Shown: positions 3,203 through 34,575 of the stretch, one piece after another
Layout of the letters: each line of letters starts with the position of its first letter
How positions within the stretch are numbered: the first letter of the stretch is position 1
Origin: Bradyrhizobium arachidis
GTDB taxonomy: Bacteria > Pseudomonadota > Alphaproteobacteria > Rhizobiales > Xanthobacteraceae
DNA: 64,000 bases
Assembly: GCF_024758505.1 (NCBI RefSeq)
Contig: NZ_CP077970.1
Coordinates: 6,944,001 to 7,008,000, forward strand
Reading direction: 5' to 3'
The notes under the pieces: model-generated
Database searches by the model: none
What the model was told of the DNA's origin: nothing
What the model saw: only the letters and a program-made list of their open reading frames with translations
Program-made: the position numbers and the translations under genes

Positions 3203-3363
3203 CACGCTGACACGCCACCTCATCTATCCGGCCAGTGAAAACTCGACCGGCCTGATGGGCTCCAGACGGGTTCGCCGCCATCCCCATCGCCGCAATTGAT
3301 CCGCCCCAGCGTGCGGCTTCTCCTGCGGTCCCCGCGCTTTATGGGTCCGGGTCCCCTCGCTCG
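3203..3363 (-). other. Conserved non-coding tail of module copy 1
   Basis: After the TAA of the second ParB gene come about 150 bp that agree with 34402-34550 at all but about five of 136 aligned positions, apart from short length differences at the two ends. That is closer than the flanking coding sequence. It includes a GGCCGGT/ACTGGCC hairpin (stem with one G-T pair) and ends at GCGTGTCAGCGTG. Possible roles are a ParB-bound site, a recombination end or a small RNA. Confidence 0.6.
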
Positions 3364-4284
3364 TTATGCCGCCTCGCTTGGGAGCGTCGACGTCATTTCG
3401 GCGATCTTCTGAAACTCGATAAACAGCTCGGGCTGGTACTGCTCGAGGTAACGCGCCACGCGGTCGTTGGTGATCAGCTTGCGGAGATAGCCCTTCACGA
3501 CCGTGAGGTGGAGGTGATCCTGGCCGTATGAGTCTTGGATCGAAGATATCGCTTCCTGCAATCGTGAGAGTTCGCGTTCCATGCGGGCAATAGCTTCGGC
3601 CGTCATGCCCTTCAACCGTTTGGGCGTCTGTGGCGTCACCAACTGGGCCTGGGGAGTGCCGGCCAATATGGCTGCCGCATAACTCACAGAAAAATTGTTG
3701 GCATTGATGAGGAGTTCGGCGGCCTCGATCTGACGCAGGGGGCTCATCTTGCGAAGAACATCGAAGACAGCCAGAGGACATATCCTGTCCTTTAATAGGC
3801 CGACGACCTCCTCGCATATTCCATCAAGCAGCTGCGCTTTACGCGCTATGCTGCGAACATTGATGTCCAGAGCCCGAGCAATCTTATCCTTAGGGACGTT
3901 GCGCTCGATCGCTTTGGCGATCATTCTCTGCTCCTGGATCGGAGACAGGCGGCTAATGCGCTTGTTGTAAGTAAACGCTTCGTCGTCGGTCGAGACCAGG
4001 CATTCAACCTCACTCTCCCCGAGGTCGCGAAGCACTTCGATCCGCAAATGGCCGTCAAGCAACAGGTAGGAACCGGGATCTCTTGTGTCCTGAATGACGA
4101 CGGGCGGTTCGACTAGCCCCATTTCGCGAATAGAGGCTGCAATCTGGCGGTATTTGTGACTAGATTTCGCAGTTTTCTCGATCGACTTGACCGGCAAGAT
4201 CGAGGCGATTTGCACCACCACGAAATCGGAGCCAAAAGCCTGGGTGATCGTGTTCGGGGCACCGGTATCGACTGGTTTGCTCAT
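3364..4284 (-). CDS. ParB-like protein with RepB-type C-terminus (module copy 1, second ParB)
   Basis: A 306-residue ParB/RepB-type protein. The N-terminal ParB domain has LLLDGHLRIEVLRDLG near residues 80-95 in place of the classical GERR box. An HTH-like stretch, KDKIARALDINVRSIARK, lies near 150-168. The C-terminal half is helical (MTAEAIARMERELSRLQEAIS) and probably dimerises. The classical CTP-binding GERRxxA motif is altered, so ordinary ParB clamp behaviour should not be assumed. Its ATG overlaps the stop of the upstream ParB gene by 4 bp, which points to coupled translation. There is no ParA ATPase in the window. Confidence 0.85.
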   Translation of the reverse strand: MSKPVDTGAPNTITQAFGSDFVVVQIASILPVKSIEKTAKSSHKYRQIAASIREMGLVEPPVVIQDTRDPGSYLLLDGHLRIEVLRDLGESEVECLVSTDDEAFTYNKRISRLSPIQEQRMIAKAIERNVPKDKIARALDINVRSIARKAQLLDGICEEVVGLLKDRICPLAVFDVLRKMSPLRQIEAAELLINANNFSVSYAAAILAGTPQAQLVTPQTPKRLKGMTAEAIARMERELSRLQEAISSIQDSYGQDHLHLTVVKGYLRKLITNDRVARYLEQYQPELFIEFQKIAEMTSTLPSEAA

Positions 4285-5192
4285 GTCGCTAATCCATCGG
4301 CGATCCGCTGCTCCAGAAACGCAGGCATGGTGTCGAGACGCTCGGCCTTGAGCAGATTTGCAAAGTTCTCATCATCGCGGAGCTCTCGCATAGCTTCGAC
4401 GATGAACAGTAATCGGCTTTGTGTGACCTCGGCCTTCTTGACGAGCAGCTTTTGGCGGTCCGCCTCTTGGCGATAGACGCGAATGATCGATTCGCCGGTA
4501 AGTGGTCGCTTGGCGCCGTCGCGCCGTCCAAACCGGCTGTCATGAATGTGTTTGCCGCTGCGCCGTCGTTGCTCGATAATCCTGCGCACTGCGACCAGCT
4601 TCTTTCCGCGTAATTTCTTTTCCGTGTACGCCTGCGTCAGAGCTTGCTGAACATCCTCATCGCTCGATTTTGCAATCTCGATCGCCATATTCAGGGGAAG
4701 AATGCCTGCTTCGACAGCCGTGACGAGCCGTTCCTCACCCTTTTCCAGTAGGGTGCCAATCATATGAATGTATTCGACGCTAACGCCGATCTTCGGTCCA
4801 ATCTCGCGGTCGCTATAGCCGCGGCCGCGGAGCGTGCTGATATCCTGCAACAGGTCGATAGCTCGATGCTGACGCCTGGCGCAATTTTCAACCAGGCTCA
4901 TAACTAGGCAATCGCTTTCCTCGGCCTCGATGACTATGGCCGGAATCTCTGTCTGACCGAGCTGAATGAACGCTTCGATCCGGCCCTGGCCACACACAAG
5001 ATCATAGCTTGCTGCGTCCGCATCGCTCTTTCGTGGGCTAACCGTGACCGGACGCTTGAGCCCGACATTGGCGATGCTCTGCACGATCTCCTGAAAATTG
5101 CGACGATTGCGGACTCTCGGATTTAGAAAGCGAATCTGGTCAATCGGGATGGACTTTACATGTTTCGGTCCTCTCGACTTGGATTTACTCAT
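4281..5192 (-). CDS. ParB N-terminal domain protein (module copy 1, first ParB)
   Basis: A 303-residue ParB/Spo0J-like DNA-binding protein. It has VKSIPIDQIRFLNPRVRN at the N-terminus, the box CGQGRIEAFIQLG near residues 68-80, VENCARRQH near 101-109 and an HTH, YSDREIGPKIGVSVEYIHMI, near 124-143. The C-terminus is basic and helical. The gene lies between the recombinase and the second ParB gene with 4-bp overlaps on both sides, so the three are made as one operon. Being tied to a recombinase rather than to ParA suggests a role in choosing or organising recombination sites; this is inference. Confidence 0.87.
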   Translation of the reverse strand: MSKSKSRGPKHVKSIPIDQIRFLNPRVRNRRNFQEIVQSIANVGLKRPVTVSPRKSDADAASYDLVCGQGRIEAFIQLGQTEIPAIVIEAEESDCLVMSLVENCARRQHRAIDLLQDISTLRGRGYSDREIGPKIGVSVEYIHMIGTLLEKGEERLVTAVEAGILPLNMAIEIAKSSDEDVQQALTQAYTEKKLRGKKLVAVRRIIEQRRRSGKHIHDSRFGRRDGAKRPLTGESIIRVYRQEADRQKLLVKKAEVTQSRLLFIVEAMRELRDDENFANLLKAERLDTMPAFLEQRIADGLAT

Positions 5193-6760
5193 ACCGCCTC
5201 CAAAAATGACGTTTGGGCTGCCATCGAATAGAGAAAGTCGAGCGATTCGAATCGGTAAGCGTCCAGCGAAAGTACGTTGTCTTCCGCCATCCGAATCCGG
5301 CCCGTATTCATGTCGATACTTGGAAGAATGTAGTAGTCGAGAGGCTGTTCGTTCGAGCGATCCAGGCGAACGGCAATCGTGACGTCCGGCGCAAGACCCG
5401 TGTCAAACCGAATTTGCCATCGAAGCGCACCGGTCCGGGTCTCGAAAGACCGCGCGAGCACGATCGATGCGGTAAATTCATGATTGACCAGAAGGAGATG
5501 AGTTATGGGGTCACAGGCGACGGATCCGCCCGCGTTTTCGAGGCCCGCTACAATTTCGGCTAGTAGTCCAGGGAAGGACTCGCGTATGTGCCGGTTGATT
5601 TCGATGAATTTGTAGTCACGGTCGGGCGTGTAGCCTATAAGGCTGTAAGCTCTCAAAAGGCTGCCGAAGCGGTGCCGGTATAGACTTGATGAGGGCATAC
5701 CATCCCGCTCGTCGATAATGAGGCCTGACAGGGAGCCCTCCTCTGCAAGCACGGCTTGAAGAAGAGCGAGCAATTCCTCATCGGAATAATGATTGTGACG
5801 TTGGTCTATAATAAGTCTGGCTCGCTCAAATAGAGCGCGGTCGACAATTGAGGGAAAGGCACCATCCGCTCGAACCCAGGTGTCGCGCTGATTGACTACG
5901 CGTCGTTGCTTCAACTTGTAAGAAACGCGATTGAAGATGTTGTTGCCGATATATTTCTCGTTCGTCAGAATCTGATGGATTGATGCCCGAGTCCATGGAC
6001 GACCAAGGTCGCTCATGATGCCCCGCTGGTTTAACGCGAGTGCGATTTCGCGCTCCGACTTACCCCCTTCGACGAACATCGAATAGATGCTGTGAACGTG
6101 CTCGATTTCGTCGGGCGGGCCAGGAGTAAGGACGACGCGGTCGGTTTGGAGGCTCTTTCGATCGCCGCGGCCGAGTTCACCCTTGGGATTTCGACCCTCA
6201 TCGATTAAGAGGCGTCGCAAGCCAAATCCAGCCGGACCGCCCTGGCGAAAGCCGTGTTCGATGAGACGGCATTGGCCGGCAAAGACCTTGACCGATAGCT
6301 CGCGGCTGTATTCACCAGCCATGACCCGTTTGACGTTCTTGAGGAGGATCGAACCGATACTGCCGTCATTGTCAAACTGTTCGCCGCAATAATGAACACG
6401 TATCCCTGCCCGAGAGCAAATGTGCTCGTGGTATGCACCTTCGTCCGCATCCTGAAATCGTCCCCAGCGGCTGACGTCGTAGACTAAGATGGCTTGAAAG
6501 CCGGCCGTGCCGGATTGCACTTCCAGCATGAGAGATTGCAATCCGTCACGACCGTCTATTCTTAAACCGCTACGACCAGAATCTTCAAAGACACGCACAA
6601 TCGTGAAGCCCCGTTGCTCGGCATAGCGACGTATCGTGTGGAGTTGATTTTCGGTGGAGTATTTCTGTAGATCTGTCGACATCCGGACATAGGCAGCGGC
6701 TAGAGAAGGACCTTCTCTTCGATTTTGGCCCTTGCCGATGCTTTTGATGCGCCCTGTCAA
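5189..6760 (-). CDS. Large serine recombinase (module copy 1)
   Basis: A 523-residue serine recombinase. The resolvase catalytic domain shows AAYVRMSTD with the nucleophilic Ser near residue 29, EDSGRSGLR near 60 and the arginine motif LVYDVSRWGR near 93. A Recombinase domain follows (GFRQGGPAGFGLRR near 170), then a DNA-binding region with LNQRGIMSDLGRPWTRASIHQIL. The start is TTG, kept in the second copy, with no clear Shine-Dalgarno. The last codons overlap the ParB start (ATGA). Enzymes of this kind cut and rejoin DNA at specific att sites and integrate, excise or invert segments. It is first in the three-gene operon and divergent from the HTH gene. Confidence 0.92.
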   Translation of the reverse strand: MTGRIKSIGKGQNRREGPSLAAAYVRMSTDLQKYSTENQLHTIRRYAEQRGFTIVRVFEDSGRSGLRIDGRDGLQSLMLEVQSGTAGFQAILVYDVSRWGRFQDADEGAYHEHICSRAGIRVHYCGEQFDNDGSIGSILLKNVKRVMAGEYSRELSVKVFAGQCRLIEHGFRQGGPAGFGLRRLLIDEGRNPKGELGRGDRKSLQTDRVVLTPGPPDEIEHVHSIYSMFVEGGKSEREIALALNQRGIMSDLGRPWTRASIHQILTNEKYIGNNIFNRVSYKLKQRRVVNQRDTWVRADGAFPSIVDRALFERARLIIDQRHNHYSDEELLALLQAVLAEEGSLSGLIIDERDGMPSSSLYRHRFGSLLRAYSLIGYTPDRDYKFIEINRHIRESFPGLLAEIVAGLENAGGSVACDPITHLLLVNHEFTASIVLARSFETRTGALRWQIRFDTGLAPDVTIAVRLDRSNEQPLDYYILPSIDMNTGRIRMAEDNVLSLDAYRFESLDFLYSMAAQTSFLEAV

Positions 6761-6846
6761 TCAGCACCCGATTCCAACGCGATTCTGTCGGCCTCTCCCA
6801 AGGCATTCATGGATTACCGCCTGATCGTACGGGATAGGAGGGTGGA

Positions 6847-7266
6847 ATGTCGTTTCCAAAAAAGGGTAAGTCCTTTCCAGAAGGCGGTAAGTCCTTTCCA
6901 AAAAAGAGCGGAGACGGCAGTTCGGATTTCGGCGTTGACGATCATGCGTTCGCGATGAAAATTGCATCGGCATTGACGTCGGAGCTTAGGGATCGCAACT
7001 CGCGTGCAAAGTTGGTGGCGGGTTGGACGGGTGCGAATGAGCGTACGGTCAAAAATTGGATTTTAGGACGATATGCACCCTGCGGCAGACACCTCGTGGT
7101 TTTGGCTCAGCATTCAGACCAGGTGCTAAAGGCCATTCTGTCCATGGCGGATCGGCAGGATCTCCTTTTAGCTCCTAAGGTGGAGGACCTGAGGCGAAAG
7201 GTATTCGAATTGGCGGCTATCATCGGCGAGCCGAGCCGCTCATCGACTAGATCTCATATACTCTGA
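6847..7266 (+). CDS. Small HTH protein divergent from the recombinase (copy 1)
   Basis: A 139-residue protein. The core GANERTVKNWILGRYAPCG followed by HLVVLAQHSDQVLKAIL looks like a helix-turn-helix near residues 65-105. The N-terminus is a run of three SFP(K/E)(K/G) units made by 21-bp DNA repeats, two of which carry the run A_AAA_AAG in frame. The gene is read away from the recombinase across 86 bp and is a good candidate repressor of the module. A second, frameshifted copy lies at 30547-30920. Confidence 0.75.
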   Translation: MSFPKKGKSFPEGGKSFPKKSGDGSSDFGVDDHAFAMKIASALTSELRDRNSRAKLVAGWTGANERTVKNWILGRYAPCGRHLVVLAQHSDQVLKAILSMADRQDLLLAPKVEDLRRKVFELAAIIGEPSRSSTRSHIL

Positions 7267-7503
7267 ATTTCGTCCGTCCGTCCGTCGACGGTCGAGCCGG
7301 TAGCTTAGCCGGAACGGTAGTTAACTCCTATTGATCTCGCCTAAAGGCTGCGCCTTGATATCGACAAGGCCGCTTGGTGGCTCGCCGCGAGACTCAGCGG
7401 TCGACACGACAACATGTCCGAATTGCGCGCCTTCCGCGCTGACGGGAGATAGTCCTCGGTGCGCCAGTGTTGGACTCCGGCTGACCGCCAGGAAATCAGC
7501 AGA

Positions 7504-7525
7504 GGCTCGGCATCGCTGCCGAGCC
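7504..7525. terminator. Hairpin downstream of groEL
   Basis: Perfect 9-bp inverted repeat GGCTCGGCA-N4-TGCCGAGCC. It lies about 30 bp beyond the groEL stop; a T-rich tract is present only on the plus-strand side, so it is probably a terminator or a transcript-stabilising hairpin. The rest of 7267-7554 shows no gene. Confidence 0.6.
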
Positions 7526-7554
7526 TTCTTATTGTTGATCTCTGAACATCGGAC

Positions 7555-9228
<1,674 letters not shown>

Positions 9229-9297
9229 TCACCCTTGCTCACCTTTGGCGAGGCGCCCGGCAGGCGCTCCTCAGGGGTGAGCGGTGCGGGCGTTGGA

Positions 9298-9612
9298 TTA
9301 GGCGGCTTTCTTCTTGGAAGCGGGGACGTCGAGCACGCCCATGATGTCGCTTTCCTTCATGATCAGCAGGTCGACGTTGTCGATCTTGACTTCGGTGCCG
9401 GACCACTTGCCGAACAGCACACGGTCACCGACCTTCAGATCGATCGGGATCAGCTTGCCGGCTTCGTCGCGGCCACCGGGGCCGACGGCGACGACTTCGC
9501 CCTGGGAGGGCTTTTCCTTGGCAGTGTCGGGAATGATGATGCCGCCAGCGGTCTTCTCTTCTGCGTCGATGCGCTTGACCACGACGCGGTCGTGAAGCGG
9601 ACGGAATTTCAT
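9298..9612 (-). CDS. groES: Co-chaperonin GroES (10 kDa)
   Basis: A 104-residue co-chaperonin: [16 protein letters not shown] at the N-terminus, the mobile loop [21 protein letters not shown] near residues 17-37, and [13 protein letters not shown] near the end. It caps the GroEL ring. A good AGGAGG site lies 5 bp before the ATG. It is first gene of the groESL operon. Confidence 0.98.
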
Positions 9613-9652
9613 GCAGTCCTCCTATTTTCTAGTCGCTTTTATCTTGGATGAA

Positions 9653-9679
9653 ATAGCAGTCGAAGCTAGCGAGTGCTAA
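9653..9679 (-). promoter_or_regulatory. CIRCE-like operator upstream of groES
   Basis: Read on the minus strand: TTAGCACTC, nine bases, then GACTGCTAT. The first arm is a perfect CIRCE half; the second differs from GAGTGCTAA at two places. CIRCE is the binding site of the HrcA repressor. It sits between the promoter and the groES start, as expected. Confidence 0.8.
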
Positions 9680-9688
9680 CCGCTCCGG

Positions 9689-9716
9689 AAATAAGCCGGC
9701 CTGCCCGGCATACAAG
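9689..9716 (-). promoter_or_regulatory. RpoH (sigma-32) type promoter for groESL
   Basis: Minus strand CTTG, 17 bases, then CTTATTT, matching the alphaproteobacterial heat-shock consensus CTTG-N17/18-CYTATNT. It is directly upstream of the CIRCE-like operator, so groESL would be under both RpoH and HrcA. Confidence 0.7.
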
Positions 9717-9770
9717 ACAAAGCCGCGAAGGATTTTGAAAAACTTCTGCATTCGAGGATGCTCGCGCTCG

Positions 9771-10025
9771 TCACTCAGCGCGAACGTTCTTTGACGGTTT
9801 GCGCTTCTGGTCGGTGTTAGCCAGCAAGGAGCGCTGCTTTCTCAAAGCGCCCCGTCGTAATTGATCAGCAGCGACCGAACTGAGGGCTTTCGGGTTGGAC
9901 CGCCGCTTGCCGGGGCTCAGAACCTCAGTGATCGGCTGAACGGCCCAAGGACGCACCGGCTGGACGTCCATAGGATCTGCTGTGGAGGGCCTTTTTGTCA
10001 TTACGACAAAACGAGGAATCGGCAT
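9771..10025 (-). CDS. Hypothetical basic protein, 84 aa
   Basis: A short basic frame (VVMTKRPSTADPMDVQP at the N-terminus, ending KRKPSKNVRAE) with a GGGGAACC stretch before the ATG at 10025. No family was recognised. It could be a chance frame in the groESL upstream region. Confidence 0.3.
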   Translation of the reverse strand: MPIPRFVVMTKRPSTADPMDVQPVRPWAVQPITEVLSPGKRRSNPKALSSVAADQLRRGALRKQRSLLANTDQKRKPSKNVRAE

Positions 10026-10147
10026 CCCCGGTTCCCCATGGGCCTTACTTAGCCTCGATTAGGGTGACGGTTTCGCCAAAATCGAATTAACATATTGGTT
10101 TCACTTGGCTTTTCCGTGCATGTGAGCCTCGGCTGATACGGGCCTCC

Positions 10148-10183
10148 GGAGAAGGTTCGAACCCGGTTTCTCTCCCTCCGCTA
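10148..10183 (+). repeat. tRNA 3'-end-like fragment, copy A
   Basis: Contains GGTTCGAACCC followed by TCTCTCCCTCCGCTA, which looks like a tRNA T-loop and acceptor strand, but the T-stem does not pair, so it is not a working tRNA. It is inverted relative to the matching parts of the two direct repeats at 10387 and 30187. The stretch 10026-10386 shows no gene. Confidence 0.45.
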
Positions 10184-10386
10184 TGGCCCGAACTTCCGAA
10201 CGGACTGCCAGCGCGCTTTGGTCTGTTACGGAGGGTCATTTGCCGGGCTGCGACCTCTTAAGGCCAAAGAAGACCCAGCCATTCCATTTCGTGCCGGTGA
10301 TCTCAGAGGCCACCGAGGAAAGGGATTTGTACGGCCGGCCCAGATACTCGAAGTCGTCATGCCGGACGGTGACACAGTGCTCTACA

Positions 10387-10556
10387 CGCCTGACCGTCTG
10401 AGTACGCTCCGCCGCAAAAAGGCGAGCCAAATCAGCAGCAAAAGGGTGCTTTGGATATCGCGGGGAGGAGGTTCGAAAATCGAGATGGCGGAGGGAGAGA
10501 ACCCGGGGTCAAACCTTCTCCGCCCGAAACGGGTCATATGGCCGATTCCAGGTATT
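10387..10556. repeat. Direct repeat, left copy, with tRNA 3'-like core
   Basis: Matches 30187-30344 in the same orientation. Shared words include CTGAGTACG, AAAAAGGCGAGCCAAATCAG, TTCGAAA, TGGCGGAGGGAGAG, ACCTTCTCCG and CCAGGTA. The core at 10486-10522, read on the minus strand, resembles a tRNA T-arm and acceptor 3' end. The pair encloses about 20 kb of stress cargo and may be old att sites. Confidence 0.5.
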
Positions 10557-10577
10557 CCACCACTCCCTCGGGGCGTC

Positions 10578-10600
10578 AAAAAAGCCCGCCGCGGGCGGGC
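10578..10600 (-). terminator. Intrinsic terminator
   Basis: On the minus strand a GC-rich hairpin (GGCCCGCCCGCGGCGGGC) is followed by six T. It ends the exported low-complexity gene at 10623. Confidence 0.85.
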
Positions 10601-10622
10601 CTTTGATGAAGGCGAAGCTAAC

Positions 10623-11093
10623 CTACTTCTGGTCTTCGTTGCTGGTGCCGGTGCCCGGACTGCCGATCGGCAAGCCATTGGCGGAGTGGCCGACGCCAGC
10701 ATTCCGGTCCGCCTGGGCGGCAGCGGGCGACTTGCCATTCTGCGTTGGAGGCTGAACGTTTGAATTGACGTTAGCGCCGGTCGTGGTGCTGCTCTGCGTG
10801 GAGGACGGGGCAGCTGCTGTGCCGCTCGACGAAGTCCCGTTCGGTGTCGGCGGCTGAACATTCGGATTTGTCGGAGAGAGGTTGGTATGAGCACCCGTGG
10901 AGCTGCCGTGCGTGCCCATGCCGGACGGTGCCGACGAGCCGCCAGTTGCGCTGCTGGACGAGGTCCCGGTGCCCGCTCCGGAGCTGGCCGCTGCGCCAGC
11001 GCCGCTTCCTGCACCACCACCCCCGCCCTGGGCGAACGAAGGTGCGGACATTGCAATGCATGCTAGTGCCACGAGTAAGGGCTTGCGGATCAT
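10623..11093 (-). CDS. Exported low-complexity protein
   Basis: Starting at the ATG at 11093, which has GGGAG at a good distance; a longer frame would need a TTG with no site. The product is about 156 residues: a signal peptide (MIRKPLLVALACIAMSAPSFAQ), a Gly/Ala/Ser/Thr-rich linker, then two NVQPPT(P/Q)NG units and a charged end. It is predicted secreted or periplasmic and largely disordered. Similar exported proteins are at 21318 and 25912. Function unknown. Confidence 0.75.
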   Translation of the reverse strand: MIRKPLLVALACIAMSAPSFAQGGGGGAGSGAGAAASSGAGTGTSSSSATGGSSAPSGMGTHGSSTGAHTNLSPTNPNVQPPTPNGTSSSGTAAAPSSTQSSTTTGANVNSNVQPPTQNGKSPAAAQADRNAGVGHSANGLPIGSPGTGTSNEDQK

Positions 11094-11121
11094 GGGGTTT
11101 CTCCCTGGTTTTGAAGGCAAT

Positions 11122-11777: not shown

Positions 11778-11859
11778 CGATTGCCTCCCTTTACGCTCCT
11801 TTCCTCGGGACGGATTTCGGTGGGGTCGGGCGGCGGAGACCGCCGCCCGTGATGGTCTC

Positions 11860-12351: not shown

Positions 12352-12434
12352 GGTGGTTCTCCTTTTTTGCCTGCGACACGGAGCGCGGCTGCGCTTGTGC
12401 GCGCCGCGTTCCTTCGTCGGACCTCGACCAGACG

Positions 12435-12896
12435 TCAGGCCGCCTTCTGCTGCTCGATCTGAGAGGCGGGAGAGGCGCCGCTTCCGATCTGGATGCGGCG
12501 CGGCTTCATGGCTTCCGGCACCTCGCGGACGAGATCGATGATCAGCAGTCCGTCGCGGAAAGCCGCCTCCTTCACTTGGACGTAGTCGGCCAGGTTGAAC
12601 ACGCGGCGGAACGGACGCGCGGCGATGCCTTGGTACAGGTACTCGCCGCTCGCCTTCTCGGGCTTCCTGCCCTCGATGGTGAGGGCGTTCTGCTCGGCCG
12701 TCACAGTGATGTCGTCGGCGCCGAAGCCGGCGACAGCGAGCGAGATCCGGTAGTGGTCTTCGCCGGAGCGTTCAATGTTGTACGGGGGATAGTGGTCTTC
12801 ACTCGCCTGGCGCAGCGTGCTGTCGACGAGGTCGGCGAGGTGGTCGAAGCCGATGGTGGAGCGCCACAGGGGCGCGAAGTCAAAGGTGGTCCTCAT
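12435..12896 (-). CDS. Small heat-shock protein Hsp20, IbpA-like
   Basis: Start taken at ATG 12896 because GGAGG precedes it; the frame is open much further upstream but that part is the 5' UTR. The 153-residue protein (MRTTFDFAPLWRSTIGFDHLADLVDS) has an alpha-crystallin domain (YRISLAVAGFGADDITV, LTIEGRK, YLYQGIAARPFRRVFNLADYVQV). It is the class A type typical of ROSE-controlled genes in bradyrhizobia. It is first gene of the hsp20 pair, with an RpoH-like promoter and a thermometer-like leader. Confidence 0.95.
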   Translation of the reverse strand: MRTTFDFAPLWRSTIGFDHLADLVDSTLRQASEDHYPPYNIERSGEDHYRISLAVAGFGADDITVTAEQNALTIEGRKPEKASGEYLYQGIAARPFRRVFNLADYVQVKEAAFRDGLLIIDLVREVPEAMKPRRIQIGSGASPASQIEQQKAA

Positions 12897-13018
12897 AGCC
12901 AAGTCCTCCAAAGAGCAAGATGGATACAAGGAGCGCAAGGCAGGGTCAGAGCGGGTCTGAAACCCGGCCCGGCGCCCGCGCCGGACCCGTGAAAGCGCCC
13001 GGCACACCGCTCTCGCGG
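12897..13018 (-). promoter_or_regulatory. ROSE-like RNA thermometer leader
   Basis: A 5' leader of about 120 nt. Its 3' end reads CTTGCTCTTTGGAGGACT just before the ATG, so TTGCTC can pair with the GGAGGA Shine-Dalgarno sequence, the hallmark of the ROSE family found before small heat-shock genes in bradyrhizobia. Upstream are GC-rich self-complementary stretches. At normal temperature the ribosome site would be hidden; heat would open it. Confidence 0.7.
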
Positions 13019-13026
13019 CGAAAAAT

Positions 13027-17276: not shown

Positions 17277-17556
17277 GGGTGCCTGCTCGGCGTTCGAGAG
17301 AGCGAGTGCATCGGAAGTCGTAGGTCTCCACAGGAACGTTCCTAGATCATTCGGTTTACTTGTCGTAATGCGACGACGCCGTCAAACGCAGCGGGCGCAC
17401 CGTTGCGAGCGCTTCGGCAAACAGGATGGTGCAGAACTCTGAGTGTAAGCGAGCCTAACTCTGCACAAGCAGAAACTGACATCGACCTTCGCCCGGATTC
17501 GCAGATGGAAAATTATGGAAGAATTCGGCCAATGGCCGAGTTGCTGCCAATCCACC

Positions 17557-25888: not shown

Positions 25889-25911
25889 GGACGTTTCTCC
25901 TTCTGGCTAAA

Positions 25912-26988: not shown

Positions 26989-27016
26989 CTGAAACCTCCT
27001 GAATGTCGTGCCAAAC

Positions 27017-27041
27017 AACATCCGACGAATGCGCGGGTTCC
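27017..27041 (-). promoter_or_regulatory. EcfG-type general stress promoter
   Basis: Minus strand GGAAC, 16 bases, TGTT, 28 bp upstream of the DUF1236 start. Confidence 0.55.
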
Positions 27042-27179
27042 TGTGCGGGAAAGTTCGGCAAGCGCCCTCGCCTCGCTTGGCGCGCGCACAGTGATGCGCT
27101 CGCCCAGGAACAACTGGAACATCGGATAAACCTCGTCGTTGGCAATGACGACTTGCGAGCCAATGGAGGAGACAACATC

Positions 27180-27407
27180 ATGAAGAAGCTAATCGTGTGC
27201 GGCGCCCTCGCCGCTTTCGCCCTGGGTACACAGGCCGCCAGCGCCGCCGAGTTCTACATCGTGCGCGATGCGACCACCAAGAAGTGCACCATCGTCGATA
27301 CCAAGCCGACGACGACCACGACGACGGTCGTGGGCGACGGCATCTACAAGACCAAGACCGAAGCCGAGTCCGCCGTGAAGACCGTCAAGGTCTGCACCGA
27401 GCAGTAA
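27180..27407 (+). CDS. Small exported protein, 75 aa
   Basis: Begins MKKLIVCGALAAFALGTQA, a signal peptide cut after ASA, then AEFYIVRDATTKKCTIVDTKP and VGDGIYKTKTEAESAVKTVKVC. The mature protein of about 50 residues has two Cys that may pair. This small secreted type is frequent in bradyrhizobia. A GGAGG site lies before the ATG. Confidence 0.78.
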   Translation: MKKLIVCGALAAFALGTQAASAAEFYIVRDATTKKCTIVDTKPTTTTTTVVGDGIYKTKTEAESAVKTVKVCTEQ

Positions 27408-27576
27408 GGATTTCGGACGGGTCGATGCTCGCTCGAAAGAGTGAGAAGTAGAGAGCAGCCGGCGGTGATCTTCATCGGCGGGCCGCCTGGAACGGCTCGT
27501 CCGGCGACCCGGACGAGCCATTTCCATGCCTGCCGATGCGTGCATGGGAGTCTGCAACTGGCTCCAAAGCAGCAAA

Positions 27577-27596
27577 AGGGCCCCAATTGGGGCCCT
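27577..27596. terminator. Intrinsic terminator for the 27622 gene
   Basis: Perfect palindrome AGGGCCCC-AATT-GGGGCCCT, followed by TTTT on the minus strand. Confidence 0.8.
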
Positions 27597-27621
27597 CAGT
27601 CTTACCGCGCACTCGCTCTAC

Positions 27622-28134
27622 TTAATTGTAGTCGGAGTATTTGAACTGCGGAAGCACCTTCAATTGCTCCTTGTTGCCGCTCATCACGGCGTGGTCCGGA
27701 ACCCAATCGTTTGTGGTGCGATTGGTGGTGGTCGTCGGCGCCGCGCCGGTGGTCGTATCGCGGGCCGTGGTCGAGGTGCTGGTCGAACTCGTCCGCACCG
27801 GCTCCTCCACGAATTTCAGCTTGTCGATGGACACCGCGATGTCGTGCTCACCCATACCCAAAAAGCCGCCAATGCCGATCACCACAGCGTTGATCTTGCC
27901 GCTCTTGTCGACGAGCAGCTCGTTAATGTCGCCAAGCTTCTCGTTGGCCTCATTATATACGTTCAGGCCCATGAGCTTGGAGGCGCGCCAACTTCCCTTG
28001 AGCGCCACATGCGCATTGGCCGGCTGGCTGGTCGCCGCCGGCGCGGCACGATCCGCCGGCTGGGTCGATTGTGCGAACGCTGCGCTACCGATCACGGCGC
28101 CGCCGAGCAGAGCAATGGCAAGAATACTTTTCAT
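27622..28134 (-). CDS. Exported PRC-barrel domain protein
   Basis: 170 residues: signal peptide (MKSILAIALLGGAVIGSAAFA), a short linker, then a PRC barrel (SWRASKLMGLNVYNEANEKL, GDINELLVDKSGKINAVVIG, GGFLGMGEHDIAVSIDKLKF) and a Thr-rich tail. Predicted periplasmic. The start has GGAGGAG upstream, and a near-perfect EcfG promoter lies about 50 bp before it. Confidence 0.88.
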   Translation of the reverse strand: MKSILAIALLGGAVIGSAAFAQSTQPADRAAPAATSQPANAHVALKGSWRASKLMGLNVYNEANEKLGDINELLVDKSGKINAVVIGIGGFLGMGEHDIAVSIDKLKFVEEPVRTSSTSTSTTARDTTTGAAPTTTTNRTTNDWVPDHAVMSGNKEQLKVLPQFKYSDYN

Positions 28135-28182
28135 CGATCATCTCCTCCAACTGAGTCAGCACCCGTCTGGATGCCCGGCCCC

Positions 28183-28208
28183 AACGCTCCGAGATTGCCA
28201 CTTGTTCC
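28183..28208 (-). promoter_or_regulatory. EcfG-type general stress promoter
   Basis: Minus strand GGAAC, 17 bases, CGTT. This is the best match of the set to the published consensus. Confidence 0.65.
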
Positions 28209-28283
28209 CGATGACACCTGCGGTTCAGGGTGAAAGGAAATCGCTATCTCTAACCTTGCGTTCCGACGGATTCACGGACTCCT

Positions 28284-29354
28284 TCACGTTCGTTGCGGCT
28301 TCGAAGCGCACTCACGCTCGGTGCAACTAGCGTCATCGATCAGCTTGCGGTATTGGCTTTCGTACGCTCTAGCCATCCGGCTCGCGGTGAAGCGCTCCTC
28401 AAACCGCGACCGAATCTTTCTTCTGTCCAGCCGCGCCAACTCCTTCACAGCCTTGATCGCTTGCTCCTCGCCATCCACGATGAAGCCGGTCACGCCGTCC
28501 TCGACCACTTCAGGCACGGAGCCGGAGCGGTAGGCGATGACGGGTGTTCCGCAGGCCATCGCCTCGATCATGACGAGACCGAACGGTTCCGGCCAGTTGA
28601 TAGGAAACAATAGCGCCGCGGCGCCGGCGAGGAATGGCTGCTTCCTCGTTTCGTCGACCTCACCCACGAGCTGGATCTTCTCGCCATCGATGTGGGGCTC
28701 GAGCTTCTTCTTGAAGAAAGCGGTCTCGCTGCGCGGGATTTTCGCGGCGATCCGCAGTGGCATCCGCGCGGCGCGCGCGATGCGTATGGCATCTTCAGGA
28801 CCCTTGTCCGCAGTCAGGCGCCCGAGGAAGGCCACGTACCGACCAACTTCGTAGCAGGGCTGGAACGAGTCCTTGGGCAAACCGTGCTGAATCGTTCCGA
28901 TCCAACGCGCGTCCGGAAGCGGCAGGCGCTGATCGTCGGAAATCGACACGAAGCTTGCTTCGGCAAACTGGCGAGCGACGTCCGACAAGCCGGGCAGATC
29001 TAGCCGACCGTGCATGGTCGTCAGGAACGGGATGCCCGTCCGGCGCAGCACCGGAAGGGGCAGCCAGTCGACATGGGAGTGGATCACGTCGAAGTCGCCT
29101 GCGCGCTTGGCGATGGCTTCGATCAGCAACGTGCAGGCGGCGTTCGGATCCGCGCCCCTCCGGCCGAGGCGCAGCGCGCGCGGCCACACGGGGTGGAGCT
29201 TTCCGCTGGTGCGGGAGTCGCCGCTCGCAAAGAGGGTGACATCGTGTCCAAAGCCGACCAGCTCGTCGACCAGCCAGGCGATGACCCGCTCCGTGCCGCC
29301 GTAGAGCTTCGGAGGGACGCTCTCGGCCAATGGAGCAAGCTGGGCAATCCGCAT
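28284..29354 (-). CDS. Glycosyltransferase family 4
   Basis: 356-residue GT-B fold enzyme. The N-terminal domain has [17 protein letters not shown] and [12 protein letters not shown]. The C-terminal domain has [18 protein letters not shown] near residue 190 and the nucleotide-sugar motif [20 protein letters not shown] near 275. Such enzymes add sugars to lipids, polysaccharides or small molecules. It is the last of three genes read together on the minus strand. Confidence 0.9.
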
Positions 29355-29357
29355 CGG

Positions 29358-29480
29358 CTAAGCCCCAAACGCGGACCGCAGGACCAACACGATAGCCGCG
29401 GAAATGAGATATGAAATCGTGAGCAGCGTCCAGCTGGGCCTTGTGCTTTCGCCGGCCACTCGCGTCACGAGCCTTTTCAT
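29358..29480 (-). CDS. Small single-pass membrane protein, 40 aa
   Basis: ATG at 29480: MKRLVTRVAGESTRPSW then a membrane segment TLLTISYLISAAIVLVL. It lies 3 bp upstream of the glycosyltransferase and 5 bp downstream of another small gene, so the three probably share one transcript. Confidence 0.58.
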   Translation of the reverse strand: MKRLVTRVAGESTRPSWTLLTISYLISAAIVLVLRSAFGA

Positions 29481-29485
29481 CCACC

Positions 29486-29695
29486 CTAACATTCGTCCGT
29501 GGGAAGCCCGTGCAGGTAGGCGAGTCCGAAGCCGGCGAGTTCTTCGGCATCGCTCTCTCGCTCTTCCCATCTCCTGTGCAGATGGCGCTCGAGGAGGCAG
29601 CGGCAGCTGTCCTGAGCGTCGACTTCCGGGTGCGTCGAACGGTACACCGTCCAAGCCGTCTCTGCCGCCCTTCTCACCGCGATCTCGTTGACCAT
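29486..29695 (-). CDS. Small conserved protein, 69 aa
   Basis: Start at ATG 29695 (MVNEIAVRRAAETAWTVYRS). It is helical with Cys and His (CRCLLERHLHRRWEERE). This is a common bradyrhizobial small protein. First of the three-gene group ending with the glycosyltransferase. Confidence 0.65.
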   Translation of the reverse strand: MVNEIAVRRAAETAWTVYRSTHPEVDAQDSCRCLLERHLHRRWEERESDAEELAGFGLAYLHGLPTDEC

Positions 29696-30186
29696 TCTCG
29701 CGCTCCGAGGATCGAAACCAGTCGCTGCCAACTCAGCACGATCCGGAAAGTTTCCGTTTTTTCCCGGAGCCTTGGAAGTGCCTACTGAGAACCGCGCCGG
29801 AGGAGTCAGGATGTCTTCGCCCGCGCACGCTCCCGTGCGACTCGGCTGCGCTGAGGGCGTTGGTCTCGGCCGGACCGGGTCGAAACAAGAAGCCGAGGCA
29901 TAGGCGGCGCTCGCCCCCGTCAGGTCTTGGCAATACAACGGGCGAACGTACCCACAGCCTATGCAAAACGGGACACCGGCGGGCCCAATAAGCGGGTTGT
30001 ATATATCCTAAATGGTCGACCGAGCTTTTGACGATCTTGGCCGCCGAGTGAAATACGAATTCTTCTGCTATTCCGATGAGGAAAATGCCCTTGGTTTCAA
30101 TAGCTTTTGTCTTCCGTTACGCGCCCGCGAAGTACAGAGCTTTGGAGAAAACACGGGCATTGGAGAAGGAGTCGGTAAAAGCCCGA
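29696..30186. other. Intergenic, no gene seen
   Basis: No convincing reading frame. It separates the stress cargo from the right direct repeat. Confidence 0.45.
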
Positions 30187-30344
30187 CCCTCTGAGTACGG
30201 TCCGCCGGCAAAAAGGCGAGCCAAATCAGCAACAACAAGCGCTTAGACTAATGCGGAGAGGACGTTCGAAACGCAGGGTGGCGGAGGGAGAGGAACTGGG
30301 ATCGAACCTTCTCCGCGTCGTCCAAGTACTCCCAGGTACTCTGG
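30187..30344. repeat. Direct repeat, right copy, with tRNA 3'-like core
   Basis: Matches 10387-10556 in the same orientation. The core at 30279-30314, read on the minus strand, has GGTTCGATCCC and ends CCTCTCCCTCCGCCA, like a tRNA T-arm and acceptor end. It may be an old att site. Confidence 0.5.
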
Positions 30345-30546
30345 CGGATTAGGTGCCCTTTGACCGGACGGTCGGAAGCGCCGGCGTGCCCTAGGACCTT
30401 TCTAGGCCTGCCTGGGGGGCGAGAGGCCTTCCCAAGGCCATGCTGTCCTCAGCGCGGAGGCCGGCTTCGTTGTGGCAAGGGGGGTGCCTAAGGACACCAG
30501 CGAGCGTCCCGCGCCCGATCTAGTCCACCAATTCGGTGGGTGTCGG

Positions 30547-30920
30547 CTAGGGATTGGGCTTCCCCAAGATATCCGCCAATTCAAACACCTTTCGCCTCAG
30601 ATCCACAACTTTGCAAGCTAGGACCAACTCCTGCCGACCTGCCATCGACAGAATGGCATTTAGCACCTGGTCTGAGTGCTCGGCCAACATGACCAGGTGT
30701 CGGCCGCAGGGTGCGTACCGTCCCAACATCCAATTCTTGACCGTGCGCTCATTCGCACCCGTCCAACCCGCAATCAACTTTGCGCGCGAGTTTCGATCTT
30801 TGAATTCCAAGCTCAATGCCGCTGCAATTTTCATCGCGAAAGCATGGTCGTCAAGGCTGAAAACTCCACCGCCGTGTCCGCCGCTTTTTGGAAAGGACTT
30901 CCCTTTTTTGGAAACGACAT
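30547..30920 (-). pseudogene. Small HTH protein of module copy 2, frame interrupted
   Basis: Homolog of the gene at 6847-7266. From the ATG at 30920 (MSFPKKG) the frame runs to a stop, while the body (from MKIAAALSLEF to ILGKPNP, with GANERTVKNWMLGRY) lies in the -1 frame. A single base is missing relative to copy 1 just after CCAAAAAAG. The word A_AAA_AAG sits in frame exactly there, and a -1 shift would give GKSFPKSG, restoring a product like copy 1 of about 124 residues. It may be a simple mutation, or the body may start from the internal ATG at 30834. Confidence 0.65.
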
Positions 30921-31007
30921 TCCACGCTCCTGTCTCATATCATCAGGCGGGTAACTCCTGAGCGCCTTGGGTGCGGCCGACAATATCGCGTTGGAATGGG
31001 GTGCTGA

Positions 31008-32579
31008 TTGACAAGGCAAATCAAAAGCTTCGGAAAAAACTTAAGTCGAGGAGAAAGGCCTTCTCTAGCTGCCGCCTACGTCCGGATGTCGACCGATCTG
31101 CAGAAGTACTCTACCGAAAATCAACTCCATACGATCCGTCACTATGCCGAGCAACGCGGCTACACGATTGTCCGTGTCTTTGAAGATTCCGGCCGTAGCG
31201 GTTTGCGAATGGACGGTCGTGACGGGTTGCAGTCTCTAATGCAGGACGTGCAATCCGGCAAAGCCGGCTTTCACGCAATCCTGGTGTACGACGTCAGCCG
31301 GTGGGGACGATTTCAGGATGCGGATGAAGGTGCGTATTATGAGCACGTCTGCTCGCGCGCTGGGATCCGAGTTCATTATTGCGGCGAGCAATTCGATAAT
31401 GACGGCAGCATCGGCTCGATACTTCTCAAGAACGTCAAACGGGTTATGGCTGGCGAATACAGCCGTGAGCTATCCGTCAAGGTTTTTGCTGGGCAATGCC
31501 GCCTCATCGAACACGGCTTTCGCCAAGGCGGTCCTGCGGGATTCGGCCTGCGACGCCTCTTAATCGACGAGGGTCGGAACCCAAAAGGCGAGCTGGGGCG
31601 TGGCGACCGAAAGAGCCTTCAGACCGACCGTGTCGTTCTGACCCTTGGTCCGCTCGAAGAAATCGAGCACGTGCACAGCATTTACTCAATGTTCGTTGAA
31701 GAAGGTAAGTCAGAAAGTGAAATTGCCGTCGCGCTTAATCAACAGGGGATAATGAGCGATCTTGGTCGTCCCTGGACACGCGCGTCGATCCACCAAATTT
31801 TGACTAACGAGAAATACATCGGCAACAACGTCTTTAATCGCGTTTCTTACAAACTAAAGCAACGCCGCGTGGTCAATCGGCGAGATACCTGGGTGCGAGC
31901 TGACGGTGTCTTCCCATCGGTTGTAGACCGAGCTCTCTTTGAGCGCGCGAGAGTCATCATAGACCAGCGCGGCAATCACTACTCCGATGAAGAATTGCTC
32001 TCCTTGCTCCAAGCTGTTCTTGACGAAGAAGGGGCGTTGTCCGGTCTCATCATCGATGAGCGCGACGGCATGCCGTCGTCGAGCTTGTACAGATCCCGAT
32101 TTGGCAGTCTGTTAAGGGCCTATAGCCTTATAGGATACGAGCCAGATCGCGATTATCGATACATTGAGATCAACCGACATATACGCGAATCCTTTCATGC
32201 AATATTGGCCGAAATTGTAGCGGGGCTCGAGAACGCCGGCGGATTCGTCGTCTGTGATCCCATAAGTCATCTGCTCTCAATCAATCGAGAGTTTACAGCA
32301 TCCATCGTGCTCGCAAGGTCCTTCGAGACCTAGGCTGGCGCACTTCGATGGCAAATCCGGTTTGACACGGGTCTCGCTCCGGACGTCACGATTGCCGTAC
32401 GCCTCGATCGTTCGAACGAACAACCGCTCGACTATTACGTTCTTCCCAGTATCGACATGAATGCCGGCCGGATCCGGATGGCGGAAGACAACGGGCTATC
32501 GCTGGATGCTTACAGATTCGAAACGCTCGACTTTCTCTATTCGATGGCAACCCAAACGTCATTTCGGGAGGCAGCATGA
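31008..32579 (+). pseudogene. Large serine recombinase of module copy 2 with in-frame amber codon
   Basis: Starts at TTG 31008, as in copy 1. The catalytic residues are intact (AAYVRMSTD with Ser; EDSGRSGLR; LVYDVSRWGR), so the resolvase and recombinase domains (441 residues) would be made. Codon 442 is TAG where copy 1 has an Arg codon. After it the frame stays open for 81 codons and ends with the same ATGA overlap to the ParB gene, giving exactly the same total length (1572 nt) as copy 1. The lost part is the C-terminal arm. It is either a recent nonsense mutation or a case of read-through. Confidence 0.85.
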
Positions 32580-33484
32580 CCAATCCTAAACCCAGACATC
32601 CCAAGCACGTAAGGACCATCCCGATTGACCAGATTCGCTTTCTAAATCCGCGAGTGAGAAATCGTCGAAATTTTCAGGAAATCGTCCAAAGCATCGCTAA
32701 CGTCGGGCTCAAACGTCCGATTACCGTCAGCCCGCGAAAGAGCGAGGCGGATTCGGCAAGCTACGACCTAGTTTGTGGCCAGGGCCGAATTGAAGCCTTC
32801 ATTCAGCTCGGTCAAACGGAGATTCCTGCCATCGTCATTGAAGCCGAGGAAAGTGACTGCCTGGTCATGAGCCTCGTTGAGAACTGCGCAAGACGCCAGC
32901 ATCGAGCGATCGACCTGTTACAGGATATCAGCACCCTACGCGGCCGCGGATATAGCGACCGGGAAATTGCGCCAAAGATCGGCGTCAGTGTTGAGTATAT
33001 TCATATGATCGGGACCCTTTTGGAGAAAGGTGAAGAACGTCTCGTTACTGCCGTCGAGGCAGGTATCCTTCCACTGAATATGGCGATCGAGATTGCAAAA
33101 TCGAGCGATGAGGATGTCCAAACAGCTTTGACACAAGCCTACACAGAAAACAAGTTACGCGGAAAGAAGCTCGTTGCTGTACGGAGAATCATTGAGCAGC
33201 GACGGCGCCGCGGAAAACAAATACATGATAGCAGATTTGGACGACGCGGCGCAAAGCGTCCACTCACCGGCGAATCGATTATCCGCGTCTACCGACAAGA
33301 GGCTGACCGCCAAAAGCTGCTCGTCAAGAAGGCCGAGGTCACCCAAAGTCGCCTTCTCTTCATTGTCGAAGCCATCCGAGCACTACGCGACGATGAAAAT
33401 TTCGCCAATTTGCTGAGGGCTGAAAGTCTCGATTCGATGCCAGCGTTTCTGGAGCAGCGGATAGCTGATGGATCGGCGATATGA
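32576..33484 (+). CDS. ParB N-terminal domain protein (module copy 2, first ParB)
   Basis: 302 residues, close to the 303-residue copy 1 protein. It keeps CGQGRIEAFIQLG, VENCARRQH, and the HTH YSDREIAPKIGVSVEYIHMI. Many synonymous differences from copy 1 with few amino acid changes point to purifying selection. Overlaps both neighbours by 4 bp. Confidence 0.87.
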   Translation: MTNPKPRHPKHVRTIPIDQIRFLNPRVRNRRNFQEIVQSIANVGLKRPITVSPRKSEADSASYDLVCGQGRIEAFIQLGQTEIPAIVIEAEESDCLVMSLVENCARRQHRAIDLLQDISTLRGRGYSDREIAPKIGVSVEYIHMIGTLLEKGEERLVTAVEAGILPLNMAIEIAKSSDEDVQTALTQAYTENKLRGKKLVAVRRIIEQRRRRGKQIHDSRFGRRGAKRPLTGESIIRVYRQEADRQKLLVKKAEVTQSRLLFIVEAIRALRDDENFANLLRAESLDSMPAFLEQRIADGSAI

Positions 33485-34401
33485 GCAAACCAGCAGGTCA
33501 GGACGTCTCACCTACCATCGCCCAGGCATTCGGCTCCGATTGCGTCGTCGTACCCATCGCTTCAATACTGCCTGTGAAGGCGATAGAAAAGACCACCAAA
33601 TCCAGTCATAAGTACCGCCAGATTGCAGCATCTATTCGCGAGATCGGACTTGTCGAACCGCCAGTGGTAATTCGAGATGCCCGAGATACCAATTCCTACC
33701 TTCTGCTTGATGGCCATTTGCGGATCGAAGTGCTCCGAGATCTAGGTCAGACAGAGGTGGAATGCCTGATCTCGACCGACGACGAGGCTTTCACATACAA
33801 TAAGCGGATTAGCCGTCTGTCTCCGGTTCAGGAGCAGCGAATGATCGCAAAAGCAATTGAGCGAAACGTTCCCAAGGACAAAATAGCAAGGGCTTTAGAC
33901 ATCAACGTTCGCAGCATAGCGCGTAAGGTTCAGTTGCTCGACGGAATCTGCGAAGAGGTCGTTGGCTTGTTAAAGGACAAGATGTGTCCGCTGGCCGTCT
34001 TTGACGTTCTACGAAAAATGAACCCGCTTCGTCAGATTGAGGCCGCTGAACTCCTCATCAATGCCAACAATTTTTCTGTTAGCTACGCGTCGGCCATTTT
34101 GGCAGGTACGCCACAAGCCCAGCTGGTTACCCCGCAGACGTCAAAGCGATTGAGGGGTATGACGGCTGAGGCCATTGCGCGCATGGAGCGGGAGCTTTCA
34201 CGATTGCAGGAAGCGATATCGTCGATCCAAGATTCGTACGGCCAGGATCACCTCCATCTCACCGTCGTAAAGGGATATCTGCGCAAGCTGATCACCAATG
34301 ACCGCGTGGCGCGCTACCTTGAACAGTTTCAGCCTGAGCTATTTGTCGAATTTCAGAAGATCGCCGAAATGACGTCGACGTTGCCAAGCGAAGCTGCGTA
34401 A
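33481..34401 (+). CDS. ParB-like protein with RepB-type C-terminus (module copy 2, second ParB)
   Basis: 306 residues, same length as in copy 1. It has LLLDGHLRIEVLRDLG, the HTH-like KDKIARALDINVRSIARK, and the same C-terminal helices. The last residues (FQKIAEMTSTLPSEAA) are identical to copy 1. It is followed directly by the conserved non-coding tail. Confidence 0.85.
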   Translation: MSKPAGQDVSPTIAQAFGSDCVVVPIASILPVKAIEKTTKSSHKYRQIAASIREIGLVEPPVVIRDARDTNSYLLLDGHLRIEVLRDLGQTEVECLISTDDEAFTYNKRISRLSPVQEQRMIAKAIERNVPKDKIARALDINVRSIARKVQLLDGICEEVVGLLKDKMCPLAVFDVLRKMNPLRQIEAAELLINANNFSVSYASAILAGTPQAQLVTPQTSKRLRGMTAEAIARMERELSRLQEAISSIQDSYGQDHLHLTVVKGYLRKLITNDRVARYLEQFQPELFVEFQKIAEMTSTLPSEAA

Positions 34402-34550
34402 GGGGACCCGGACCCTTCAAGCGCGGGGACCGCAGGAGAAGCCGCACGTTGGGGCGGATCAATTGCGGTGATGGGGATGGCGGCGAACCCGTCTGGAGCC
34501 CATCAGGCCGGTCGAGTTTTCACTGGCCGAATAGATAGCGTGTCAGCGTG
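34402..34550 (+). other. Conserved non-coding tail of module copy 2
   Basis: Nearly identical to the 3203-3363 tail (about five differences in 136 aligned positions). It starts with GGGGACCCGGACCC and ends at the outer hairpin. Confidence 0.6.
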
Positions 34551-34575
34551 TTTAGACCGGCGCACGCTGACACGC
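34538..34575. repeat. Perfect 13-bp inverted repeat at the outer end of module copy 2
   Basis: GCGTGTCAGCGTG, 12-base loop, CACGCTGACACGC. In copy 1 only the proximal arm is intact (3203-3215); the other arm (about 3179-3191) is diverged. It marks the point where similarity between the copies ends. Confidence 0.75.

Follow-up and report, generated by a model that had tools for sequence, protein, structure and literature searches.

A large serine recombinase, two ParB proteins and an adjoining structured RNA as the likely integration module of tandem genomic islands in Bradyrhizobium arachidis

Tandem genomic islands that share a recombinase have been described at ssrA in Dehalococcoides, where an island module pairs large serine recombinase (LSR) genes with a ParBc protein and with a conserved tRNA-like RNA of small size, and where many of the islands are module-less (PMC3146451). 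That module comprises DsiB and DsiA together with RecF-like, Mom and polymerase-domain genes, and a 20-bp ssrA repeat accompanies it (PMC3146451). The SCC/ECC cassette chromosomes provide a second point of reference; there, CcrAB LSRs bring cargo cassettes to one place, with multiple att sites and rlmH as the target (PMC6222049). The locus considered here is a 64,000-nt stretch of the 9.43-Mb genome of Bradyrhizobium arachidis (hereafter the window; window position 1 is position 6,944,001 of NZ_CP077970.1), in which an original prediction had noticed a unit of an LSR gene, two different ParB-like genes (ParB1 and ParB2) and a small divergent gene that occurs twice. From comparison of sequences we conclude that this unit very probably belongs to a cargo-bearing system of site-specific recombination, and we consider it likely that a family of tandem genomic islands uses it as integration module.

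The Dehalococcoides ssrA islands are the nearest precedent, since both systems have tandem islands, an LSR with a ParB-type protein and a small RNA, and module-less islands. The module in the window differs in having one LSR, two RepB-type ParBs, a small divergent gene and a 130-nt RNA, and ARAGORN found no transfer-messenger RNA in the window or the array stretches, unlike the ssrA target; the target of one class of sites described below (class II) is tRNA-Arg(CCG). LSR-driven cargo cassettes and several att sites are shared with the SCC/ECC chromosomes, but tRNA-Arg (for class II), ParBs and an RNA are found here in place of rlmH and a CcrA/CcrB pair, and the LSR is not a Ccr family member (CcrB scores 71 bits against a cut-off of 900). 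Integrons use the tyrosine recombinase IntI and folded attC sites, and their module-less rows are known as clusters of attC sites lacking integron integrases (CALINs). The likeness to integrons is one of layout only (a module at one end, a row of sites in the same orientation, module-less rows), whereas the recombinase here is a serine enzyme, the sites are unfolded and the blocks are long. RepB and ParB of repABC systems are partition proteins; the ParBs of the unit have the same ParB_N and PF07506 domains, with CTP-type motifs in ParB1, but two of them are coupled to an LSR, with no ParA among the open reading frames (ORFs) tabled. A serine recombinase near a structured RNA also recalls IS607-type and RNA-guided elements, which have this arrangement; no TnpB or IscB occurs among the ORFs scanned, for which no dedicated search was made, and nothing indicates that the RNA guides anything. 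Searches of open-licence PubMed Central text brought up nothing that we recognised as this module. The combination of two RepB-type ParBs and an uncatalogued structured RNA beside an LSR distinguishes it from the nearest precedent, which has one ParBc and a tRNA-like RNA.

The two copies lie in inverted orientation at about 3.2–7.3 kb (copy 1, minus strand) and about 30.5–34.6 kb (copy 2, plus strand), and are 79–84% identical in nucleotide sequence across the module in a window self-comparison, which confirms the inverted pair of the original prediction (Table 1). Its fixed gene order with 4-bp ATGA overlaps is likewise seen in both copies, with the LSR/ParB1 overlap of copy 2 existing only in the LSR frame beyond the LSR's stop. 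In Pfam searches the LSR matched Resolvase and Recombinase (E=2.8e-20 and 6e-21), and the serine of YVRMST is kept in all 36 loci that align there, out of 37 loci. Both ParBs carry PF07506 RepB; ParB1 also has a clear ParB_N match, which in ParB2 stays under the cut-off. The motifs GxGRxxA and ENxAR are present in ParB1 at 37 of 37 loci, and, with the CTP-type meaning that we take them to have, ParB1 would be a CTP-type clamp and ParB2, which is without the EN motif, its degenerate partner. The purifying selection proposed earlier was also borne out: between the copies, the ratio of nonsynonymous to synonymous substitution (dN/dS) is 0.03–0.05 for the operon genes (LSR 0.052, ParB1 0.032, ParB2 0.041) and 0.18 for the small gene, with dS at 1.06–1.30 and 0.68, respectively. 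Copy 2 is decaying, with a TAG within its LSR and the start of its small gene out of frame (95 aa remain). The small divergent gene itself is present as described, but its description as a helix-turn-helix (HTH) protein found no support: no HTH family was assigned by Pfam, NCBIfam or PADLOC, and the single match is to a PHROG of unknown function. In a tree of 33 LSR sequences, copy 1 is sister to the module of Bradyrhizobium sp. Leo170 (L039) and not to copy 2; the pair is therefore placed as two lineages without local duplication, and on this tree duplication is not built into the system.

Searching genomes for the recombinase beside two ParB genes, a check put forward with the original prediction, gave 29 loci in the genome_contigs set, 26 of them modules with LSR, ParB1 and ParB2 in complete order; the remaining three are a contig-end fragment (L064) and partial ParB2 matches (L066, L067). 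Within the 26, the LSRs of L044 and L047 are broken, and L061 and L062 are almost identical. A divergent homologue of the small gene holds the same position in 17 of the 29 loci. P0003 has matches, many weak, in 38 of 198 family genomes, and the 17 relatives examined (L003–L019), each with a strong near-full-length match, all have LSR and ParB1 sequence beside ParB2. Plasmids carry the arrangement as well: ParB2 matches 110 plasmid records (86 over at least 80% of the query), and the six annotated regions among eight examined all show a recombinase followed by two ParB/RepB proteins. These plasmid matches and the RepB/ParB domains would suit a remnant of a plasmid partition system. We find that origin hardly credible, however, with no ParA among the window ORFs tabled (not every window ORF was scanned), ParBs joined with an LSR at 26 of the 29 loci, and a chromosomal position beside recombination sites. 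Two Agrobacterium plasmid modules lie near TniQ/TniB/Mu-type transposition genes (L073 on both sides, L069 on one) and near DUF1403-ScpB genes. A second genome with two modules is G127 (L088, L089), where they are about 56 kb apart with their RNA ends face to face.

A recombination-type site (class I, core GTTATGGAA) with the motif ATTCGCNNATGNNATGTTATGGAAGAAGTCGGCCA, another feature that the original prediction lacks, lies beyond the RNA in both window copies, and the motif also follows ParB2 in the RNA-less L003, L004/L042 and, weakly, L012. Between copy 1 and L039, homology stops 7 bases from the motif core, about 460 bp beyond the RNA. A 59-column profile built from 21 sites finds 17 sites at E<=0.1 in the B. 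arachidis genome, all within two arrays; 13 of these were in the training set, so the count speaks more for there being no further sites than for discovery. A reversed-pattern control in the same genome gave no matches. Array A, around the window, has 11 sites: six on the minus strand, the first at 6899746 and the last at 6946764 by module 1, and five on the plus strand between 6961491 and 7000393, so that the sites on either side point the same way as their module. Array B consists of six minus-strand sites at 589574–614878. Same-orientation rows also occur in the genomes of L039, the Tardiphaga locus L042 and G189; a pattern search over nine handles matched seven, of which G107 and G203 give the same places, for six of eight distinct genomes and an empty reversed control. 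The profile matches 16 of 196 family genomes at E<=0.01 and 10 of them at E<=1e-6.

The orientation of the sites also bears on the original prediction that the unit is a self-contained mobile or inversion system, with the stress genes between the copies as cargo that flips or moves. The stress-gene block itself is confirmed, with GroEL, two Hsp20 and a ROSE element, and the fixed unit is upheld by the 26 of 29 loci. The prediction's further ideas, that the ParBs choose the recombination site and that the small gene acts as repressor, are conjecture. The block between the copies did not prove to be its diagnostic cargo: only the site at 17491 lies inside, and the other ten of array A run outward from the RNA ends, over about 47 kb to the left and 22 kb to the right. 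No evidence of block inversion was found, and inverted isolates were not searched for. Because the module-adjacent sites are inverted relative to each other, the copies or their sites could in principle flip the 23–32 kb between them. Such a flip-flop is nevertheless very improbable as an account of the system, as the copies belong to different lineages, the copy 2 LSR has a stop, and the direct-repeat rows of G107 and G189 accompany a single module. The ROSE element occupies 12890–13002 of the window, near the hsp20 genes.

Breakpoints of homology coincide with the cores. Of the 130 homology ends compared among 18 regions, 7 lie no more than 30 bp from a core on each of the two partners, a count that leaves out two pairs of overlapping regions of one genome and includes three cases that concern module 1's site and are not independent. 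When the sites were shifted circularly as a control, the mean was 0.0026 and the maximum 1 in 5000. Two site pairs that are alike on one side only place the crossover within GTTATGGAA, and the arrays differ in how they combine left and right half-sites. Two blocks in the window are shared with array B. The acetyltransferase block, which reaches about 0.2 kb left of the window to the site at 6943832, has cores at both borders in both arrays and is about 2 kb longer in array B. The Ku piece (3.76 kb; 6984842–6988581 in array A and 606044–609795 in array B) is 93.6% identical between the arrays and stops just beyond the core in both. G138 shares a 0.39-kb segment that precedes the copy 1 site, and there the segment stands beside a site distant from that genome's module.

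These breakpoints raise the question of whether the arrays work as an integron-like platform, in which a single LSR module would serve in trans many cassettes that lack a recombinase and have one kind of site, with module-free arrays as the counterpart of CALINs. Such a platform would entail repeated cassette exchange, not the accretion of once-autonomous islands. The differently combined half-sites agree with it, as do the distribution of the five LSR relatives in the B. arachidis genome (two modules in arrays and three loci outside them), the six sites of array B without a module, and the module-less one-direction rows of G153 (four sites) and G064 (five sites). The array blocks, however, are long (about 3–16 kb), mostly multigenic and mixed in gene orientation, and four sites folded as single-stranded DNA gave z of -0.65 to 1.37, unlike attC, so attC-like hairpin sites were rejected for them. 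We regard the platform as possible but not probable. Class I sites were also considered as tRNA ends and rejected, there being no tRNA in the array stretches. LSRs usually use distinct attP/attB pairs. The class I sites are alike on both halves, which, unlike attP/attB, suggests reversible exchange or heavy re-use. The printed class I sites of G024, G105, G167, G138, G189 and G107 show no clear target gene.

A different site accompanies a different branch of the recombinase tree. The sister LSR clade of the class I clade (L041, L043, L045 and L046, with support of 0.99; 0.71 for the class I clade) carries the class II site GATRGACCNNKGCCC, whose right halves are varied. With one mismatch allowed, the class II pattern has 18 hits in five class II loci, 15 of them on the module strand, over a background of one hit each in 4 of 14 other loci and two hits for the reversed control. 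The three opposite-strand hits (L041, L043, L094), which are without the usual right halves, are probably chance. Rows beyond the module, in module orientation, are found in L041, L043 and L045; L046 has the tRNA copy only, and L094 has a module remnant. On the small-gene side, at 2.0–2.5 kb from the small gene (1.2 kb in L045), a tRNA-Arg(CCG) gene contains the class II left half within its 5' half. In all four genomes examined (G198, G199, G200, G169), a second tRNA-Arg(CCG) copy, intact by ARAGORN, stands 10–34.5 kb off, with 5'-half direct repeats of 91–133 bp. Read from these repeats, class II has the ordinary signature of a tRNA-targeted island. From the agreement of LSR clade with site class we infer that the LSR is the enzyme that recombines the sites.

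The contents of the arrays introduce a competing candidate for that role. Array ORFs of at least 180 aa numbered 66 after exclusion of the inner block and of four ORFs across stretch ends; 51 were scanned, the other 15 being module genes, one IS110 copy, doubtful ORFs and some that lie outside the arrays. Among the 25 of 83 families shown, the cargo includes ABC substrate-binding proteins, TPR proteins, adenylate cyclase, FAD enzymes, Ku and SRAP, along with two tyrosine recombinases (Phage_integrase) and four IS110 transposases; the right array also holds a riboswitch-bearing NhaA gene and an IS701. The tyrosine recombinases, IS110 and IS701 mean that another enzyme could have made some junctions, which counts against our reading, and IS110 copies (6898303, 6943880, 600769, 604576 and 610009; 89–99.9% identical) end in some cases 50–100 bp from sites. 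If such an enzyme had built the arrays, the module would be a passenger. We judge this unlikely, because a site stands just beyond the module in both window copies, L039, L003, L042, L041, L043 and L045, because site class agrees with LSR clade, and because the reversed-pattern controls of class I are empty. The riboswitch of the NhaA gene is an nhaA-I riboswitch at its start (50374–50426 of the window).

The most novel part of the system, absent from the original prediction, is an uncatalogued RNA. Beyond each ParB2 lies a noncoding 136-nt stretch, 96% identical between the copies, with an RNA of about 130 nt that begins GGGGACCCGGACCC. Over the aligned part, nucleotide identity is 81–90% between copy 1 and modules with about 50% protein identity, and 80–86% on plasmids outside the genus. 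A 27-pair structure, drawn from the folds of the same 18 sequences on which it was assessed and so biased in its favour, is formed in 96.3% of cells, with two-sided changes at 11 pairs; structures slid along the alignment pair only 30–51% of cells, and on four of five covariation measures none of 500 shuffles matches. For 25 further copies (24 distinct; found by pattern or blastn), in an alignment fitted to the model, none of 500 shuffles matches on any of the five measures, and nine pairs have two-sided changes. G-U pairs are common, which suits an RNA, while single-base alignment gaps and the two-sided pair changes rule out a protein-coding reading. Rfam has no gathering match at the RNA in the window; at E<=10 the copy 2 stretch has only two MIR1437 hits, both on the hairpin, and at E<=1 six relatives show no match for the RNA. 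A HEARO or IscB-type RNA was considered and dropped, with no Rfam match.

Searching 196 family genomes with model R1 returned 12 matches in 10 genomes: two in the window, eight beside ParB2 or a ParB2 remnant (G127 twice, G136, G159, G185, G080, G169 and, weakly, G133) and two beside inserted transposase-like genes (G096, G163). In L090 and L091, transposase-like genes are inserted at or in the RNA. In the 25 of 26 genome_contigs modules covered by the search (L062 was left out), the RNA is strong in 10 and weak in one. Several deep clades of the LSR tree have the RNA and others lack it; with this scatter it therefore looks like an old, often-kept part of the unit that has been lost repeatedly. 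Among modules that bear the RNA, including those of Falsiroseomonas, Roseomonas and Sphingobium, no shared site motif was recognised beyond it. In L045 (14514–14700), a small-gene end and an RNA 3' end lie about 30 nt apart, possibly the scar of a second module.

A strict bond between RNA and module was rejected after module-less copies turned up on plasmids and viral contigs. Ten plasmid records have the RNA, with a ParB2 relative directly upstream in eight and not in two (L185, L186); in L187, which has the ParB2 relative, neither LSR nor ParB1 was seen. Of 22 viral contigs with an exact match to the RNA core, 13 have ParB2 just upstream, seven have none and two are too short to tell. One of the seven (L163) offers merely 177 upstream bases, and another (L168) has an apparent small-gene start beside the RNA (E=0.02). 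In three more (L165, L174, L181) the RNA adjoins a pectate-lyase-like gene, with only the L165 match passing the curated cut-off; a phage-tail gene comes next in L165, as it does in the module-bearing L051. The upstream sequence turns unrelated at or near GGGGACC in most module-less copies, and all of these except L168 score 98–119 bits.

Several observations weigh against the unit as an integration module with its own sites and RNA. Array B has no module nearby, only four of the ten family genomes with sites at E<=1e-6 hold one, and the best sites of G138 are more than 2 Mb from its module. No site was detected beside the L040 module, and at its small-gene end the class I element has no clear site nearby. 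When 41 module loci were each compared with themselves, few had a downstream site that repeats; L041 showed the site itself, L039 a stretch directly after both sites, and L045 a duplicated module end, and the other matches were not site-like. The B. arachidis genome has one intact tRNA-Arg(CCG), with flanks not syntenic with those of class II, and the attempt to identify an empty class II site by this synteny failed. For the RNA, 77 of 500 shuffles reach the fifth measure (further pair types) on the first 18 sequences, and pair 34-62 frequently fails to form, as in 21 of 24 further copies. Many modules are without the RNA and RNAs occur without modules, and these module-less copies argue against a role for the RNA confined to this LSR.

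With these points in mind, we still favor an integration module of tandem islands, and a working scheme can be outlined. The LSR would recombine short same-orientation sites, one of them just beyond the RNA end of the module, so that cargo blocks would accumulate one after another downstream of it and could pass between arrays. The two ParB/RepB proteins probably play an accessory part, loading at or near the site and helping synapsis or setting direction, and the small divergent gene may be a regulator of the operon. The RNA is presumably transcribed at the 3' end of the operon and perhaps regulates the operon or read-through into the array; alternatively, it may be a structural part. A bolder idea, to which we give little credence for now, is that the RNA together with ParB clamps licenses, orients or regulates LSR synapsis at the adjoining site, which would make the system an RNA-using serine counterpart of the integron with module-free arrays acted on in trans. 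If the integration module is real, it would be a defined, testable engine for the assembly of chromosomal islands in soil- and plant-associated alphaproteobacteria, and the RNA, the site motifs and the switch between class I and class II would open the choice of site and direction by LSRs to simple tests.

Table 1. Features of the two module copies, their sites and shared blocks, in window coordinates.
Feature	Position	Strand	Remarks
Acetyltransferase block with IS110 copy	1..2763	-	Also in array B; shared stretch stops at site cores
Class I site next to module 1	2710..2764	-	
Imperfect inverted repeat after RNA, copy 1	3180..3216	-	Sequence
Structured RNA, copy 1	3225..3356	-	Covariation; model R1 156.2 bits (in training set)
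ParB2, copy 1	3364..4284	-	RepB PF07506; ParB_N under cut-off
ParB1, copy 1	4281..5192	-	ParB_N + RepB PF07506
LSR, copy 1	5189..6760	-	523 aa; Resolvase + Recombinase domains
Small divergent gene, copy 1	6847..7266	+	139 aa; PHROG_23106 (unknown function), E=8e-6
Class I site between modules, upstream of module 2	17491..17544	+	
Small gene, copy 2	30547..30834	-	Start out of frame
LSR, copy 2	31008..32579	+	In-frame TAG at 32331-32333
ParB1, copy 2	32576..33484	+	
ParB2, copy 2	33481..34401	+	
Structured RNA, copy 2	34402..34533	+	Model R1 156.5 bits (in training set)
13-bp-stem hairpin after RNA, copy 2	34538..34575	+	Sequence
Class I site next to module 2	34621..34676	+	Genome position 6978621
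3.7-kb piece with Ku (SRAP by sequence)	40842..44581	+	Shared with array B; ends at core in both
Class I site	44548..44597	+	
Class I site	50940..50991	+	
Class I site, last of right array	56348..56393	+	

A few smaller features of the window complete the description. ARAGORN reports an 89-nt tRNA-His at 27684–27772, which is long for a tRNA-His and perhaps spurious. A 76-nt direct repeat, 78% identical between its two occurrences (10448–10523 and 30241–30316), looks like the 3' end of a tRNA-Ser, and a stretch like it is found in L040 (6797–6879) on the small-gene side of the module.

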